Assembly: GCA_035515795.1 (NCBI GenBank)
Contig: DATJAY010000033.1
Coordinates: 1 to 64,000 of the forward strand
Length of the DNA stretch: 64,000 nucleotides
Origin: Candidatus Acidiferrales bacterium
Lineage (GTDB): Bacteria > Bacteroidota > Ignavibacteria > Kryptoniales > JAKASW01
Direction: 5' to 3'
The position numbers and the translations under genes were made by a program. Positions within the stretch are counted from its first letter, which is position 1, and every line of letters begins with the position of its first letter. Below the pieces are notes generated by a model. That model was not told where the DNA came from. It saw only the letters and a list, made by a program, of their open reading frames with translations, and ran no database searches. Positions 32,948-43,098 of the stretch are shown here, one piece after another.

Positions 32948-33609
32948 CAATCTCTCCAGACAAAATCAAATAAAAGAATCGAAACCGTCGTAACAACGAC
33001 GGCATATGAAATCATTATCTTAAGATCATCGGCGGCGCTGGCGACGGGGGCACCTTCAACCGAAAGACGCGTTGCGTCGATGACACTCATCAGTAAAGGG
33101 AGCAATATTGGAAACGATAGAACGGGGTAGAGTGTTCCCTTCGAGTTTGCTTTTGATATGATTGCTGCGATGAAAGTCGAAGCAGATGCTAGTCCGAAAC
33201 TTCCGATCAAGATCGTGAGCAGAAAAATCACGGGCGACTGGATTGTGAACGTCGGCATGGTCAATAGATAAGCCGTGGTTATCATCGCATTCAGGACGTA
33301 GATCAGCAGCGCATTGAATGCCAGCTTCCCGAGGAGGACCGACGTCGGTTTGACCCAGAGCTGCAAGGTCATCGTAGTTCCTCTTTCTTCCTCACTGACA
33401 AATGACCGCGAGAGACCGCTCATCGCCGCGAAGAAAATTATTATCCACAAAATCCCGGCGGAAAGGCTCGGTGAAACGGTCTCTCCTGTCGTAGAAAAGA
33501 GAACAATTGAGAGTGTGACCACGACGAACATAATCAGCGCGTTCAGCGCATAGCGTGTACGGAGTTCTCCATAAAGGTCTTTGGTGAATACAGCGGCGGC
33601 TCCTCTCAT
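32947..33609 (-). CDS. ccmB: Heme ABC exporter membrane subunit CcmB
   Basis: Permease subunit of the CcmAB transporter that powers release of heme-CcmE. 220 residues and six helices; recognisable segments are KDLYGELRTRYALNALIMF and RSFVSEEERGTTMTL. The start at 33609 gives the usual N-terminus; the frame runs further upstream only through the tRNA remnant. No ccmA gene for the ATPase is next to it, so that must be elsewhere. It is the first ccm gene after the tRNA/GIY-YIG insertions. Confidence 0.92.
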   Translation of the reverse strand: MRGAAAVFTKDLYGELRTRYALNALIMFVVVTLSIVLFSTTGETVSPSLSAGILWIIIFFAAMSGLSRSFVSEEERGTTMTLQLWVKPTSVLLGKLAFNALLIYVLNAMITTAYLLTMPTFTIQSPVIFLLTILIGSFGLASASTFIAAIISKANSKGTLYPVLSFPILLPLLMSVIDATRLSVEGAPVASAADDLKIMISYAVVVTTVSILLFDFVWRD

Positions 33610-33615
33610 GCGATG

Positions 33616-33644
33616 AAGATAGCCCGATGGAGATACATGTTCAA
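33616..33644 (-). promoter_or_regulatory. Possible promoter of the ccm operon
   Basis: Read on the minus strand: TTGAAC (33644-33639), a 17-base spacer, then TATCTT (33621-33616). The -10 box ends only seven bases before the ccmB ATG, so transcription would begin at or near the start codon and the mRNA would be almost leaderless. The match is good, but this short leader is unusual. Confidence 0.35.
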
Positions 33645-33669
33645 GGAAGGGATTCTCAGATGGTCGGAA

Positions 33670-33682
33670 GCGGAGAGGGAGG
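33670..33682. repeat. 13-bp direct repeat (left copy) flanking the GIY-YIG unit
   Basis: GCGGAGAGGGAGG, identical to 34101-34113. Both copies abut the inverted-repeat ends of the 418-bp unit exactly. The sequence equals the 3' end of tRNA-Ser(CGA) (T-stem, acceptor strand, discriminator and next base). With the preceding GAA the left copy matches 16 bases of the intact tRNA locus at 34439-34454. Confidence 0.85.
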
Positions 33683-34100
33683 CAAACTACGTCCCGCAAA
33701 GAGCGGCGGAACTTCGTTTGCTTGAGGATTCAAAATGCACTCTTAAATATGTTCGCTCAGGATCCTTTTCTTCAGAATCGCTTTGCACGACCCGGTCTTG
33801 AAATATTTTTCTAATTTTCTCGCTTGCTGTTCTGTTTCGACTCCGATGAGCCCAGCGAACTTTAGGGGTCTGTAGACCTTTGTAGATTGCACCATGCCGT
33901 CGTTATGTTCAGCAAACCGTCTTTTCAACGAATTTGTTGAACCAACATACAGAAAATCCTTTGAGAGACTTTTCAGAAAATACACAAACCAGAAGTTGTT
34001 GAACATTAAATCCCCCTGACCTTTTTAAAATGAGCCTGCCAGACGAAGTCCCACTCCAGGATTTATTCTAGATTTGGGTAATCATGCGGGACGTAGTCTG
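33683..34100 (-). mobile_element. Candidate 418-bp GIY-YIG mini-element with inverted ends
   Basis: Ends are CAAACTACGTCCCGC (33683-33697) and GCGGGACGTAGTCTG (34086-34100), complementary at 14 of 15 positions. Each end also has a subterminal partner: GCGGAACTTCGTTTG (33704-33718) and CAGACGAAGTCCCAC (34040-34054), so each end can fold into its own hairpin. The left pair both read CAAAC and the right pair both read CAGAC, i.e. the arms co-vary within an end. The single gene inside encodes a GIY-YIG nuclease. A 13-bp direct repeat flanks it. This layout implies a mobile or once-mobile unit. Confidence 0.7.
33743..34006 (-). CDS. Small GIY-YIG nuclease-domain protein (A)
   Basis: 87 residues, essentially a single GIY-YIG domain: WFVYFLKSL (the GIY strand is FVYFL), LYVGSTNSLKRRFAEHN with YVG, the catalytic Arg and a His/Asn, and a helix with the conserved Glu in QARKLEKYFKTG. 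Such stand-alone domains are annotated as GIY-YIG nuclease family or UPF0213-like. It has the ribosome site AGGGGG. It is the only gene in the 418-bp unit with inverted ends, so it is the best candidate for its mobility function, by analogy with homing endonucleases. Confidence 0.88.
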   Translation of the reverse strand: MFNNFWFVYFLKSLSKDFLYVGSTNSLKRRFAEHNDGMVQSTKVYRPLKFAGLIGVETEQQARKLEKYFKTGSCKAILKKRILSEHI

Positions 34101-34159
34101 GCGGAGAGGGAGGGATTCTGCGCCAGAGGCGCATGAGCCTACGGCTCAGAACCCTCGAT
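34101..34159 (-). pseudogene. tRNA-Ser(CGA) 3'-end remnant interrupted by a 30-bp twin hairpin
   Basis: Bases 34101-34118 equal the 3' end of the intact tRNA gene (34442-34459), and 34149-34159 (GAACCCTCGAT) equal the following bases (34460-34470). Between them lie 30 extra bases at 34119-34148. In tRNA terms the break falls in the T-loop between TTC and GAA. The far end of the same remnant continues at 33667-33682 on the other side of the GIY-YIG unit. Confidence 0.85.
34119..34148. repeat. 30-bp twin-hairpin element in the tRNA remnant
   Basis: Two perfect adjacent 15-nt hairpins: TGCGCC-AGA-GGCGCA (34119-34133) and TGAGCC-TAC-GGCTCA (34134-34148). The loop of the second supplies the stop codon (TAG, 34141-34139 on the minus strand) of the neighbouring GIY-YIG gene. 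It has the same architecture as the element in ccmF at 31545-31574. Confidence 0.75.
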
Positions 34160-34423
34160 TGATTTAGGCTTAGAATGTGGTGGCGCCACGTGTTCGTCGA
34201 GCCACTTACGACCGACGCCGGTTTTGAGAAACGACTCACGTTTTCGAGCTTCGACTAGTGTCGGGTAGGATTCAACGTGGACCAGTACCCAAGTTGTGCC
34301 TCTTGCAGTGAAAGTTGTCTTCTTCTTGTTGTGATCTTTAAGCCTCTCCTCTGGAGACCTCTCCGTTGAACCGACATACCGTTTTTGAAGTTTCTCACTC
34401 CAAAGGACGTAAACCCAGCTCAT
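34139..34423 (-). CDS. Small GIY-YIG nuclease-domain protein (B)
   Basis: 94 residues from ATG 34423 (an earlier start at 34435 is possible). Single GIY-YIG domain: WVYVLWSEKLQKRYVGSTE with the GIY and YIG-like strands, the Arg in ERLKDHN and the Glu in EARKRESFLKTG. It is only distantly similar to protein A. The last residues (SIEGSEP) are encoded by the tRNA-Ser remnant and the twin hairpin, so its C-terminus was altered by insertion. It lies between two copies of the tRNA-Ser 3' end. Confidence 0.87.
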   Translation of the reverse strand: MSWVYVLWSEKLQKRYVGSTERSPEERLKDHNKKKTTFTARGTTWVLVHVESYPTLVEARKRESFLKTGVGRKWLDEHVAPPHSKPKSIEGSEP

Positions 34424-34442
34424 TGTTGAGCACATATCGAAG

Positions 34443-34529
34443 CGGAGAGGGAGGGATTCGAACCCTCGATACCCCGAAGGGTATTCCGGTTTTCGAGACC
34501 GGCCGATTCAACCACTCTCGCACCTCTCC
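34443..34529 (-). tRNA. tRNA-Ser (anticodon CGA)
   Basis: Full cloverleaf of 87 nt: acceptor GGAGAGG/CCTCTCC with discriminator G, anticodon arm CCGGT-CTCGAAA-ACCGG giving anticodon CGA (reads UCG), a long variable arm (TACCC-TTC-GGGGTA) typical of serine tRNAs, and T-arm GAGGG-TTCGAAT-CCCTC. CCA is not encoded. Its 3' end (with flank) is copied downstream at the insertion cluster. Confidence 0.96.
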
Positions 34530-34575
34530 AGCACCTTTTTCGATCACCTGCAAGACGAAGCTCAAGCCCGGTCCT

Positions 34576-34663
<88 letters not shown>

Positions 34664-34791
34664 AGGCGAATTTGTCGTTAAATTTAACACCTTGGCACGA
34701 TGGCCACAAGAAATATTTCCACCGGTGGCTAAGCATAATTCTTGATTTTTACTTTAGACCAGAATATCTTGCAATCAGATTAGGAACACGA

Positions 34792-36255
34792 ATGAGCACT
34801 GATGATTTTGATTTTACGTTCGACGACGAGCAATTCGACGAGTTCGAAAAGCATAACATCGACGAGGAAATAAGACGCCTCCGCAAGGAGGAACCAACCT
34901 TTTCGAACATCGCCGCATTGGAAGAAATAATAGACTATTTCATGAGTCAGGATAAATACGAAGATGCCCTTTTCTTTGCGAACAAATTAGTCGCGATCAT
35001 GCCTGCAAGCGCCGAGAATCTGGCACGAAGAGGGGAGATAAACGAGGCGCTGGGGAAATTTGAAGTCGCGCTGGAAGATTACACCAGAGCGATTGAATTG
35101 AATCCGGTGGAAGTTGACGCATTGATCGGAAGGGCAAGCTGTTTGCAGATGCTTGACATGTTCGAAGAAGCCCTTGATAACATAGATCGGGCTCTTGATA
35201 TCGAGCCCGGAAGTTATGAAGCCTTGATGAATAAAGGGGTGATTCTCGAGAAACTCGGAAAATACGAGGATGCTTCGAAAGTTTTCAAGTATCTGACAGA
35301 GCTTGATCCTGAGGATAAAGACGCGTGGTTCGAGCTGGCATATTGCTTTGATTATCTCGAGGAACCGGACAGATCTTTAAAATGCTACGACAACGTGATA
35401 GAGCTGGATCCGTACAATCACAGAGCATGGTACAACCGCGGCATCGCATTGAGTGCCCTTGGAAAATATCAGACTGCAGTTGAGAGCTACGATATGGCAA
35501 TTGCGATAGATGAAAAGTTCAGCGCGGCATGGTATAACCGGAGCAACGCGCTTTTAAGCATGGGCAAACTGCAGGAAGCGATCAAGAGTTACAAGACGAC
35601 ATTGAAGTATGAGCCCAACGACGTCGCAACATGGCACAACATGGCAACGGCTTATGAGGAGCTCGGCGAATACAAGGAAGCAATTCGATGTTATACGGAG
35701 GCGTTGAAAGGCGATACGAATCATATCGAATCCCTTTTCGGCAGGGGAGTGTGTTATGATGCGATCAACATGTATAAAAAGGCGCTCGTTGATTTTAACA
35801 GGGCATCGGAACTGGACGGCTCCGACCATGATATATGGCATGCAAAGGGCGACGTGGAGTTCACGCTGGAGCTCTTTAAGGATTCAGTGGAAAGCTACCG
35901 GCGCGTCACGGAACTGAAGCAGGATAATGTTGACGCGTGGGTTGATCTCGGGGATGCTTTGGTCGAATGCGATAATTTTAATGAAGCGCTGCAATCTTAT
36001 GACAAAGCCATTGAAATTTCTCCCGACTGGGGAGAAGCGTATTATCAAAAATGTAAATGCTGCCTCCAGATCGGCGCTTATGACGACGCAATCAGAGGTG
36101 CCAAGAAAGCTTTGGAGTTGGAACCTCATAAGATCAATACCTTCTTTCAGGATTTCGGACAGATCCAGCACTCAAATCCTGAAATCTTAATTAAATTTGT
36201 TTTCCCAGTTTATCAATGGTTGGTGAATGAAAAAAAATATAAAGAGTCTCACTAA
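34792..36255 (+). CDS. Cytoplasmic TPR-repeat protein
   Basis: About 487 residues from ATG 34792, with no signal peptide. The N-terminus is very acidic (DDFDFTFDDEQFDEFEK), followed by about a dozen TPR units from residue 60 on, e.g. ALEDYTRAIELNPVEVDAL and AWYNRGIALSALGKYQTAVE. It likely acts as an adaptor. Its 3' end overlaps aroE by 29 bases, so the two are coupled, though no functional link is evident. The frame is open upstream only through the tRNA genes. Confidence 0.85.
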   Translation: MSTDDFDFTFDDEQFDEFEKHNIDEEIRRLRKEEPTFSNIAALEEIIDYFMSQDKYEDALFFANKLVAIMPASAENLARRGEINEALGKFEVALEDYTRAIELNPVEVDALIGRASCLQMLDMFEEALDNIDRALDIEPGSYEALMNKGVILEKLGKYEDASKVFKYLTELDPEDKDAWFELAYCFDYLEEPDRSLKCYDNVIELDPYNHRAWYNRGIALSALGKYQTAVESYDMAIAIDEKFSAAWYNRSNALLSMGKLQEAIKSYKTTLKYEPNDVATWHNMATAYEELGEYKEAIRCYTEALKGDTNHIESLFGRGVCYDAINMYKKALVDFNRASELDGSDHDIWHAKGDVEFTLELFKDSVESYRRVTELKQDNVDAWVDLGDALVECDNFNEALQSYDKAIEISPDWGEAYYQKCKCCLQIGAYDDAIRGAKKALELEPHKINTFFQDFGQIQHSNPEILIKFVFPVYQWLVNEKKYKESH

Positions 36256-41442: not shown

Positions 41443-43098
41443 ATGATTAAACCTGAATTAGCAGATGAAGGCCGCTTTGATGATGCTGTGTTCTCCGTCG
41501 TAGACGTCGAAACAACCGGCTCCGTGGCATCGGGAGAAAGAATGATAGAATTCGCAGCTTATAAAGTCCGTAATGGCAGAATTGTCGACGAATATACCAC
41601 TCTGCTGAATCCCGGCAGACATATTCCGAATTTCATCCGAAACATGACCGGCATAAGCAACGAAATGGTTTACGACGCTCCCTCGTTCGGAGAAGTTGCC
41701 GGCAGGATATACGATTTTTTGTCGGAGACGATTTTTACCGCCCACAATTCACACTTCGATTACTCCTTCGTTAGAAACGAAATGGCGATGGCAGGGTTCG
41801 ATTTTGATATGCCGCAGCTTTGTACCAGGAAATTGAGTTCTAGAGTTTTCCCGCAGCTTCCAAGGAAAGCACTGGATCATGTATGTCGTCACCTTGGAAT
41901 AAAAATAAGTGCAAGACATCGTGCGTATGGCGATGCACGGGCGACTGCACATTTGTTGATAGAATTGCTGGAGTTGATTGCCGAACGACACGAGGTCGTT
42001 GGAGTTGATGAGCTTCTCCGCTTTCAAAATGTCTCGGCGAGTATTGATCGCCACAAAAACCAGAATGTCTTCAAGAATGCAATGATGAGGGCGCCGAATT
42101 TACCGGGTGTTTATAGAGTTCATGGTGCTGACGGTGAGATTGTTTATGCAGGCAAGGCGAAGAATCTAAAACTCCGACTTGCGTCTTACCTCACGCAAAA
42201 TGAAAAAGATTCAACGAAAGTCAGGAAGATGATTCAGGAAGCGAGGGGGATCGAGTTTGAAATTGCCGCGTCCGAGTTGGCCGCGTTCATGAGAGAACTC
42301 CAGCTTATCAGGCAACATCAGCCCAAGTTTAATTCTTTGCTGGTGAACCCGAGGCGGTTCCCGTTCATCAAGCTCTCGACCGAAAGCAAGTTCGACACAT
42401 TGGATGTTGTCTATGAATTGGACGGAGCCGGAAGATATTATGGACCGTTCGAAAATTCCTTCATTGCCGAACAAGTTCTCTTAGCCGCCGACAAATATTT
42501 TAAGCTGGTAAAATGTGAAAATGATTTCGCCAGGCCGTTCGATCCTTGTCTTTATTTCCACATCGAAAGATGCATGGCCCCATGCCGGGGGGATATCGGC
42601 ATTTCTGAATATGAAAGGGAAGTCGAGGCGGTCGAAGAGTTTCTTTCGGGATCGTTTGAGAAACTGACATCCGAATTGAGGCTGAAACTCGATGAGCTTT
42701 CAAAGAAGCTTGAGTTCGAGGAGGCGATTGAGATGAGAGATTTGATTGAGGTCCTTGAAAAAACCTCTTCTCGCTTGAAACTCCTTGATGGTCCGCTAAG
42801 CAGGGCGAATTTTGTCTGCGGCTGGCTTCGTGAAAATGAGTATGAACTTTACGCCGTGCGGCGTGGATTCCTGACAGGGCCCAAAGTTGCTGCCGATGCT
42901 GAACTCGAGTCCGGATTGAAACTCCTGCTCAGCGGGTCTCCTATTGCGGGTGATTTTGTCCCCTTGCGAATTATTCTGAACTATGCGCTAAAAAATCCTC
43001 AAGGTTTTTTCAAGATCGACGCAAAGGGAACGGAGTCTGAGCTGGCCCAAAAAATAAAAACCGCTGTCGGTCACGTCTCAACAGCGGTTCACAAATAA
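41443..43098 (+). CDS. DEDDh exonuclease fused to a UvrC N-terminal (GIY-YIG) module
   Basis: 551 residues. Residues 15-185 form a DnaQ-like exonuclease: VVDVETTG (Asp, Glu), AHNSHFDYSF (Asp) and HRAYGDARAT (His, Asp). Residues 220-305 are a GIY-YIG domain: LPGVYRVHG, IVYAGKAKNLKLRLASY and the Glu in MRELQLIRQHQPKFN. Then comes a UvrC-type cysteine region (CLYFHIERCMAPC) and a UVR-like helix pair (KLEFEEAIEMRDLIEVLE). The C-terminal UvrC RNase H-like and HhH domains are absent. Similar exonuclease-Cho fusions are known in mycobacteria and Bacteroidota. It probably makes a damage-directed incision with its own end resection. Confidence 0.88.
   Translation: MIKPELADEGRFDDAVFSVVDVETTGSVASGERMIEFAAYKVRNGRIVDEYTTLLNPGRHIPNFIRNMTGISNEMVYDAPSFGEVAGRIYDFLSETIFTAHNSHFDYSFVRNEMAMAGFDFDMPQLCTRKLSSRVFPQLPRKALDHVCRHLGIKISARHRAYGDARATAHLLIELLELIAERHEVVGVDELLRFQNVSASIDRHKNQNVFKNAMMRAPNLPGVYRVHGADGEIVYAGKAKNLKLRLASYLTQNEKDSTKVRKMIQEARGIEFEIAASELAAFMRELQLIRQHQPKFNSLLVNPRRFPFIKLSTESKFDTLDVVYELDGAGRYYGPFENSFIAEQVLLAADKYFKLVKCENDFARPFDPCLYFHIERCMAPCRGDIGISEYEREVEAVEEFLSGSFEKLTSELRLKLDELSKKLEFEEAIEMRDLIEVLEKTSSRLKLLDGPLSRANFVCGWLRENEYELYAVRRGFLTGPKVAADAELESGLKLLLSGSPIAGDFVPLRIILNYALKNPQGFFKIDAKGTESELAQKIKTAVGHVSTAVHK
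43059..43089 (-). terminator. Terminator of the coiled-coil lipoprotein gene, inside the facing gene
   Basis: Arms AACCGCTGT (43059-43067) and ACAGCGGTT (43081-43089). Read on the minus strand the stem is followed by TTTTTATTTTTT, a strong U-tract. It therefore ends the minus-strand lipoprotein transcript, yet it lies within the last codons of the plus-strand exonuclease gene. Confidence 0.88.

Follow-up and report, generated by a model that had tools for sequence, protein, structure and literature searches.

A putative homing-like GIY-YIG cassette at a bacterial tRNA-Ser gene and its relatives at other tRNA isotypes

IS200/IS605 and REP/RAYT elements carry imperfect hairpins with conserved mismatches at their ends, and SLX1, a eukaryotic repair nuclease with further domains and the partner SLX4, cleaves branched DNA by structure. 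In T-even phages, the GIY-YIG homing endonuclease SegB is tied to tRNA genes and drives their tandem amplification (PMC13096335). Furthermore, the rRNA genes of CPR bacteria hold GIY-YIG insertions that correspond to no group I or group II intron and that were judged to lie outside spread by homing (PMC11270868). In the literature searched, with preprints and many subscription journals outside its scope, we found no description of tRNA-linked GIY-YIG cassettes and no equivalent of the locus studied here. This agrees with the initial annotation of the locus, which knew of no described element combining hairpin ends with such a nuclease.

We analysed a 64-kb stretch of DNA (in the following, the window), in which a unit of 418 bp (33683-34100) holds a single gene, encoding a GIY-YIG protein. 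Our preferred reading is that this unit is probably a selfish, homing-like cassette specialised on tRNA-Ser genes. The respective features are listed in Table 1. The 13 bp GCGGAGAGGGAGG occur exactly three times in the window (33670-33682, 34101-34113, 34442-34454), where the copy at 34442-34454 is the 3' end of the intact tRNA-Ser(CGA). By chance, about 3e-5 copies are expected in 941 bases, and none of 20,000 shuffles contained the 13-mer. The inverted ends of the unit (33683-33698 vs 34085-34100) are identical at 15/16 positions and both fold on their own, i.e., the left end with z = -5.3 as RNA and -3.5 as DNA, the right end with z = -3.1 and -2.3, respectively. The initial annotation had described a distinct unit that has hairpin ends, carries one small GIY-YIG gene and is accompanied by a duplicated 3' end of tRNA-Ser, all of which we recovered. 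Its 13-bp duplication is exact on both sides of the unit, but the repeated tRNA piece exceeds 13 bp, since a part of the T-loop (33724-33735) also precedes the right hairpin, and the copy at 34101 is distinct from the tRNA. The T-loop remnant is clearer in the relative G010, where it reads GGTTCGAAT.

Table 1. Features of the tRNA-Ser locus (window coordinates).
Feature	Position	Strand	Evidence and remarks
tRNA-Ser(GGA)	34576..34663	(-)	neighbour of the target tRNA; ARAGORN and Rfam RF00005
tRNA-Ser(CGA), intact, occupied	34442..34529	(-)	last 13 nt = 34442-34454; ARAGORN and Rfam RF00005
GIY-YIG gene 1, nested inner unit, 98 aa	34139..34435	(-)	PF01541 E = 3.5e-13
Displaced tRNA-Ser 3' piece	34101..34159	(-)	DNA fold z = -4.0 and sequence
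Hairpin L	34038..34102	(-)	arms CAGACTACGTCCCGC (34086-34100) and GTGGGACTTCGTCTG (34040-34054)
GIY-YIG gene 2, 87 aa, catalytic domain only	33743..34006	(-)	PF01541 E = 4e-13, above cut-off
T-loop remnant TTTTGAATCCTC before hairpin R	33724..33735	(-)	compare tRNA TTCGAATCCCTC; GAATCC
Hairpin R, inverted counterpart of L	33682..33721	(-)	arms CAAACGAAGTTCCGC and GCGGGACGTAGTTTG
Copy of the last 13 nt of tRNA-Ser(CGA), outer right boundary	33670..33682	(-)	sequence match

A second GIY-YIG unit, overlooked by the initial annotation, sits between the tRNA-end copy at 34101 and tRNA-Ser(CGA) and consists of gene 1 and a displaced tRNA 3' piece. The final codons of its gene 1 read into the tRNA remnant, and in the tree described below gene 1 groups with Ser/Leu-linked GIY-YIG genes. 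The displaced tRNA-Ser piece is made up of GAATCCCTCCCTCTCCGC (34101-34118), two hairpins within the T-loop (34119-34148) and ATCGAGGGTTC (34149-34159). Hairpin L is now abutted by this displaced 3' piece and not by the intact tRNA. In the simplest history, unit 1 would have entered later and pushed the original tRNA end off its trailer.

The insert lies between an intact and a partial tRNA copy, as is the case for genomic islands at tRNA genes; no integrase gene as expected of a tyrosine-recombinase island was found in the unit. The GIY-YIG domain is the sole recognisable protein domain, with no HUH (Y1) transposase encoded in the unit, and a promoter and terminator scan of the unit gave nothing beyond chance. 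Rfam reported no intron family at E<=1 in 33500-34800, for which we rejected an intron identity; tRNA-Ser(CGA) is intact and without interruption, which does not match a self-splicing intron RNA.

The gene 2 product belongs to the GIY-YIG superfamily, since profile, catalytic residues and fold all match. That is, residues Y9, Y20, G22, R30, H34 and E66 are invariant among 35 relatives of gene 2, and the AlphaFold2 model (pLDDT 90) is closest to the solved structures of SLX1 (Z 8.1) and HIGLE, followed by UPF0213 and the I-TevI catalytic domain. A structural match of Z about 8 is moderate, and the profile search agrees with it (SLX1 5.6e-5, UPF0213 0.003). Given that SLX1 acts on branched DNA by structure, it is plausible by analogy that a domain-only relative recognises hairpins. 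For the lineage linked to tRNA-Gln, the median dN/dS is 0.13 (7 usable pairs), i.e., this lineage is under purifying selection.

Two further identities were considered for the protein. With PADLOC, neither window protein had a match and a Gln-lineage relative had only weak, partial ones, such that a defence system was rejected. A phage or plasmid home was rejected as well: in tblastn searches, the window protein had no match among 50,697 phage or 72,556 plasmid records, and the viral contigs searched yielded only five matches.

Next, we studied the conservation of the hairpins. Hairpin L is present in 46 anchored tRNA-Ser loci. For the covariation test, its arms were located via sequence anchors, independently of pairing. 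In L, each of the four outer pairs is formed in 26-29 of 29 distinct sequences vs 14-17 when shuffled and occurs as 3-4 pair types; the core mismatches are fixed (T.C in 29/29, C.T in 28/29). Hairpin R recurs with a fixed CGAAG/CGTAG-type core and shows the mismatches G.A and A.G, matching those of L, in 20/20 sequences; covariation of its outer stem is weaker than in L. Given covarying stems and fixed mismatches across phyla, L and R are conserved as structures and, at the core, in sequence. The ends and hairpins do not vary freely, in accordance with the initial annotation: boundaries recur across phyla and stems covary.

Such ends might suggest a transposon-like unit, whose GIY-YIG nuclease (or a host enzyme in trans) would both cut and join its hairpin ends, with single-stranded hairpins as in IS200/IS605 or REP and the tRNA end as target. 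Both ends are indeed sequence-specific hairpins with fixed mismatches and covarying stems, R is an inverted L, the boundaries at the tRNA end are precise, and the nearest fold is that of a structure-specific nuclease. Still, the unit lacks an HUH or any other transposase gene, and GIY-YIG enzymes are not known to join ends. Furthermore, hairpin L is also found alone behind tRNA-Ser without any GIY-YIG gene (and once behind tRNA-Gly), its motif has 0-6 exact copies per genome, which is not a high-copy dispersed repeat, and it is absent from the lineages at other isotypes. We therefore consider a transposon-like unit unlikely. The likeness to IS200/IS605 drawn by the initial annotation stands for the imperfect subterminal hairpins at both ends; it is no more than an analogy, as the unit has no HUH transposase gene.

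Since L stands alone behind tRNA-Ser, it may belong to the target, i.e., to the trailer or terminator, and it overlaps or forms part of the terminator in one genus. Hairpin L may thus be host-owned rather than element-owned, which counts against a homing cassette; it may represent an element end, a scar or host trailer. Given the T-loop piece before R in G010, R is most readily understood as a palindrome inserted in what is left of a tRNA, which is also the situation in the lineages at other isotypes. In addition, G007 carries a dispersed repeat with ACTACGCGAAACGCTTCGT on C5, C8, C15 and C27 (L290, L294, L295, L298), located at position 82 of two contigs, which looks like an unrelated mobile element with a chance match to the hairpin L motif.

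The same anatomy is found elsewhere in the window's genome, which has 12 GIY-YIG matches. Six of the 8 small GIY-YIG genes lie directly 3' of a same-strand tRNA (Val, Gln, Pro, Met and two times Ser). Each of the six is then followed by a partial copy of its own tRNA; a short palindrome unrelated to the tRNA either takes the place of one arm of this copy or interrupts a loop. For instance, the copy after tRNA-Val reads CTCAGTTGGTTCAGGGC [ATCCCGACTTGATccATCAAGTCGGGA] GGGTCAGAGGTTCAAATCCTCTACTGCCCAC. Among 41 genomes of the same class, the pattern occurs at Val, Gln, Pro, Met, Ser, Asp, Leu, Lys, Ala, Arg and Cys. Units of 309-486 bp are often arranged in tandem, and several of the tandem copies of 309-450 bp are identical; one single-contig genome carries five identical GIY-YIG copies, 450 bp apart, behind tRNA-Leu. 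The 418-bp unit is hence no lone case, and the initial annotation was too narrow here: two units are nested at the locus, and the unit is one lineage of a family at many tRNA isotypes.

Some loci show a mirrored order, i.e., a broken 5' copy, the GIY-YIG gene and then the intact tRNA, which is the usual arrangement in Patescibacteria. Patescibacteria and Omnitrophota loci (L205, L208, L211, L214, L217-L244) have GIY-YIG genes at Cys, His, Trp, Lys, Tyr, Val, Phe and other isotypes, mostly 5' of the intact tRNA, and the tRNA 5' end is repeated upstream. At another locus (L001, G000:C27), two tandem tRNA-Val 5' halves, each with the anticodon arm replaced by a palindrome, are located before the intact tRNA-Val, about 190-290 bp upstream of the GIY-YIG gene, so broken copies pile up on the 5' side too.

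Three further observations concern these genomes. First, a separate GIY-YIG clade from the same genomes (28 sequences) has no adjacent tRNA. Its genes (L003 at G000:C39:238284, L004 at G000:C16:36949, also L061, L070, L087 and L123) lie between inverted copies of a repeat CATTGCGAG...GAAGCAATC, which has 8 exact-motif copies in the genome while a control pattern has 0; this palindromic repeat family might have the GIY-YIG gene as its autonomous member. Second, another GIY-YIG match in the window (42106-42333, (+)) is part of a 551-aa open frame, and a 625-aa frame is found at C35; one of the two is presumably UvrC. Third, ARAGORN reads broken copies as tRNA genes, among them a false tRNA-Cys(aca) and a tRNA-Met with a hairpin in the D-arm (L131, L110, G000:C12:260414-260492), and Rfam scores one remnant 28.7 vs a cut-off of 29. 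Automated tRNA counts are therefore inflated in such genomes.

To relate the unit to other lineages, we surveyed named genomes with four gene 2 relatives as queries, based on protein similarity only, which provided 80 loci with 79 distinct genes. An intact same-strand tRNA is found within 350 bp for 68/79 genes, where about 0.4% are expected given about 44 tRNA genes in a 4.08-Mb genome. The closest relatives are nearly all 3' of tRNA-Ser, and close relatives are found in Ignavibacteria, Cytophagales, Balneolaceae, Chloroflexota, Omnitrophota, Alphaproteobacteria (Pseudomonadota) and others. Their common anatomy starts with the tRNA-Ser end ...CCCTCTCCGC(CA) followed by L (NNNNCTACG...CTTCGNNNNGCAGG), the GIY-YIG gene and R (NNNNCGAAG...CGTAGNNNN), after which the tRNA-Ser 3' end is usually repeated over 13-17 bp. 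At 101/144 loci, the tRNA-end copy on the far side scores better than each of 60 dinucleotide shuffles. At the remaining 43/144 loci the copy is not detectable, which counts against a homing cassette, as does the repeat length, which varies from 9-17 bp to >100 bp with trailer, unlike a fixed target duplication.

Most genomes surveyed are MAGs and short direct repeats are prone to mis-assembly, such that one might suspect an assembly or binning artefact at repeated tRNA sequences. This is refuted by recurrence in isolates: the same anatomy was recovered from dozens of assemblies made independently, among them those of cultured Fodinibius isolates and of a closed Ignavibacterium chromosome. We consider the chance of an artefact negligible.

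The tree of 191 GIY-YIG domains covers 138 tRNA-linked loci and 17 isotypes. It requires 38 isotype changes compared to a shuffled mean of 76.9 (minimum 73), where the second survey was Ser-seeded, vertical inheritance adds signal, the domain is short and many forks are poorly supported. That is, GIY-YIG lineages each apparently keep to one tRNA isotype. As for a free-standing homing endonuclease, lineages are tied to a target site, and the site-specific behaviour implied by the initial annotation is supported. Within Ser, the anticodon switches often (21 changes vs 26.4 shuffled), in line with the shared Ser 3' end being what is recognised.

These results also bear on a more conventional explanation, i.e., ordinary tandem duplication of a tRNA followed by decay, with the GIY-YIG gene carried along and hairpins stemming from unrelated palindromic repeats. 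It would account for one intact and one broken tRNA copy as well as for direct repeats of variable length with terminators inside the repeat. It does not account for the presence of GIY-YIG genes at tRNA genes in many phyla, for the fidelity of lineages to an isotype, or for core mismatches and pairing of L and R being kept across phyla. Given the covariation and tree results, we disfavour it and judge it very unlikely.

We then compared empty and filled sites, the former having been suggested by the initial annotation. In one genus, to which cultured Fodinibius belong, a syntenic tRNA-Ser(GCT) site is filled in 3 and empty in 9 genomes; empty and filled genomes diverge by >15% in sequence, which is a point against the homing reading. 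Comparing the filled G256 with the empty G114, the left homology covers tRNA end, L and terminator, while the right homology restarts within the second copy of tRNA end, hairpin and terminator (434 aligns with 36). In G256, the GIY-YIG gene and R hence lie between direct repeats. G183 retains a stretch resembling a GIY-YIG start and has lost the remainder.

In the genus of the window, a tRNA-Ser pair is located beside CcmB in 13/13 genomes. GIY-YIG units of differing architecture are found at this pair in G000, G004, G006, G007 and G010, and none in the other genomes; no empty CcmB-linked site of this genus has a spare tRNA-Ser 3' end. G010 shows the anatomy of the window again at tRNA-Ser(CGA), with a direct repeat of >100 bp. 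Thus, empty sites do exist, with a mixed picture in the window's genus, and the cassette shows presence and absence at a fixed allele among relatives, as for a free-standing homing endonuclease. Apart from that, the tRNA-Ser pair (window 34442-34663; loci L042-L054) is inverted relative to CcmB in 3/13 genomes (G000, G004, G005), i.e., it flips or is replaced often.

Alternatively, the nuclease could be domesticated and useful to the host by amplifying tRNA genes via tRNA-end recombination, with remnants as by-products. Common tandem arrays and purifying selection on the protein are in accordance with this, and the phage enzyme SegB amplifies tRNA genes (PMC13096335). The arrays inspected, however, amplify the GIY-YIG gene and the broken tRNA rather than the intact one, and patchy presence among close relatives suits a selfish element better. 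We therefore regard domestication as quite unlikely.

For the selfish, homing-like cassette, we infer the following mechanism, including mobility and the direction of movement. A tRNA-Ser gene without an insert would be cut near the T-stem/acceptor 3' strand by the nuclease of about 87 aa. Hairpin R and the nuclease gene would then be placed behind the tRNA as the break is repaired, either with an occupied copy as donor or through annealing of the common tRNA end. One tRNA copy would remain whole while the other is displaced as a 3' remnant, and the palindrome interrupting this remnant would protect it from recutting. The hairpins may be what a nuclease without binding domain recognises, which we propose because its nearest solved relatives are branched-DNA nucleases of the SLX1 type. 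Direct tRNA-end repeats would subsequently permit tandem amplification and loss. Sister lineages would act likewise at other tRNA isotypes. The persistence of an intact tRNA beside the nuclease gene counts against a homing cassette, since this tRNA would have to escape cleavage.

Apparently, the unit is a member of a widespread and hitherto undescribed cassette family in many bacterial phyla. Its general plan comprises an intact tRNA gene, in some cases hairpin L, a catalytic-domain-only GIY-YIG gene of about 85 aa and a palindrome-broken copy of the end of that tRNA. A more far-reaching reading, which we put forward tentatively, is a new class of minimal mobile elements of about 300-450 bp, in which a catalytic-domain-only GIY-YIG nuclease uses structure to recognise both the palindromic ends of its element and targets of tRNA shape, with lineages for most isotypes and in bacterial phyla including Patescibacteria. 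If the preferred reading is right, many genes annotated just as GIY-YIG and the partial tRNAs nearby would be parts of one selfish family, and a nuclease-only route would be added to the integrase-driven colonisation of tRNA genes. The unit would also show that a nuclease of about 87 aa can keep site specificity via hairpin structure without a DNA-binding domain, and it would provide minimal parts for insertion at tRNA sites. For annotation, broken tRNA copies and tRNA-encoded protein tails are a warning, since they mislead gene finders. The cassette is open to experiment given that cultured Fodinibius species, among them F. salsisoli and F. halophilus, carry it.

Finally, we compared the cassette with the known systems. 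By profile and fold, UPF0213 and SLX1 come closest. UPF0213 proteins have the size of a single domain, as do the cassette nucleases, while SLX1 differs by its eukaryotic repair role, extra domains and the SLX4 partner. IS200/IS605 and REP/RAYT share imperfect hairpins with conserved mismatches at their ends; unlike these, the cassette has no HUH/Y1 transposase, a target copy is present and its copy number is very low. Tyrosine recombinase islands at tRNA genes are likewise flanked by a complete and a partial tRNA copy, but they span about 9-23 kb and encode an integrase (PMC9897764), whereas the cassette has hundreds of bp, no integrase and a partial tRNA copy that is broken by palindromes. 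The rRNA insertions of CPR bacteria also place a GIY-YIG gene in a structural RNA gene, in lineages that carry the tRNA type as well; they differ in that they lie inside rRNA genes at poorly conserved sites, with no tRNA copy reported (PMC11270868).

Because we hold homing to be the most likely mechanism, we class the unit as a free-standing GIY-YIG homing endonuclease cassette; it is nearest to SegB of phage T4 and is not assigned to any known family. SegB differs in that it is phage-borne, whereas the cassette is chromosomal and no phage relative of the window protein was found. Hairpin ends and a tRNA-end copy are features of the cassette, with none reported in the available part of the SegB description (PMC13096335). 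Like the cassette, SegB is a free-standing, tRNA-associated GIY-YIG gene without intron, and it shares with the cassette the tandem amplification, which runs via short homologies at the tRNA gene and the end of the nuclease gene (PMC13096335).
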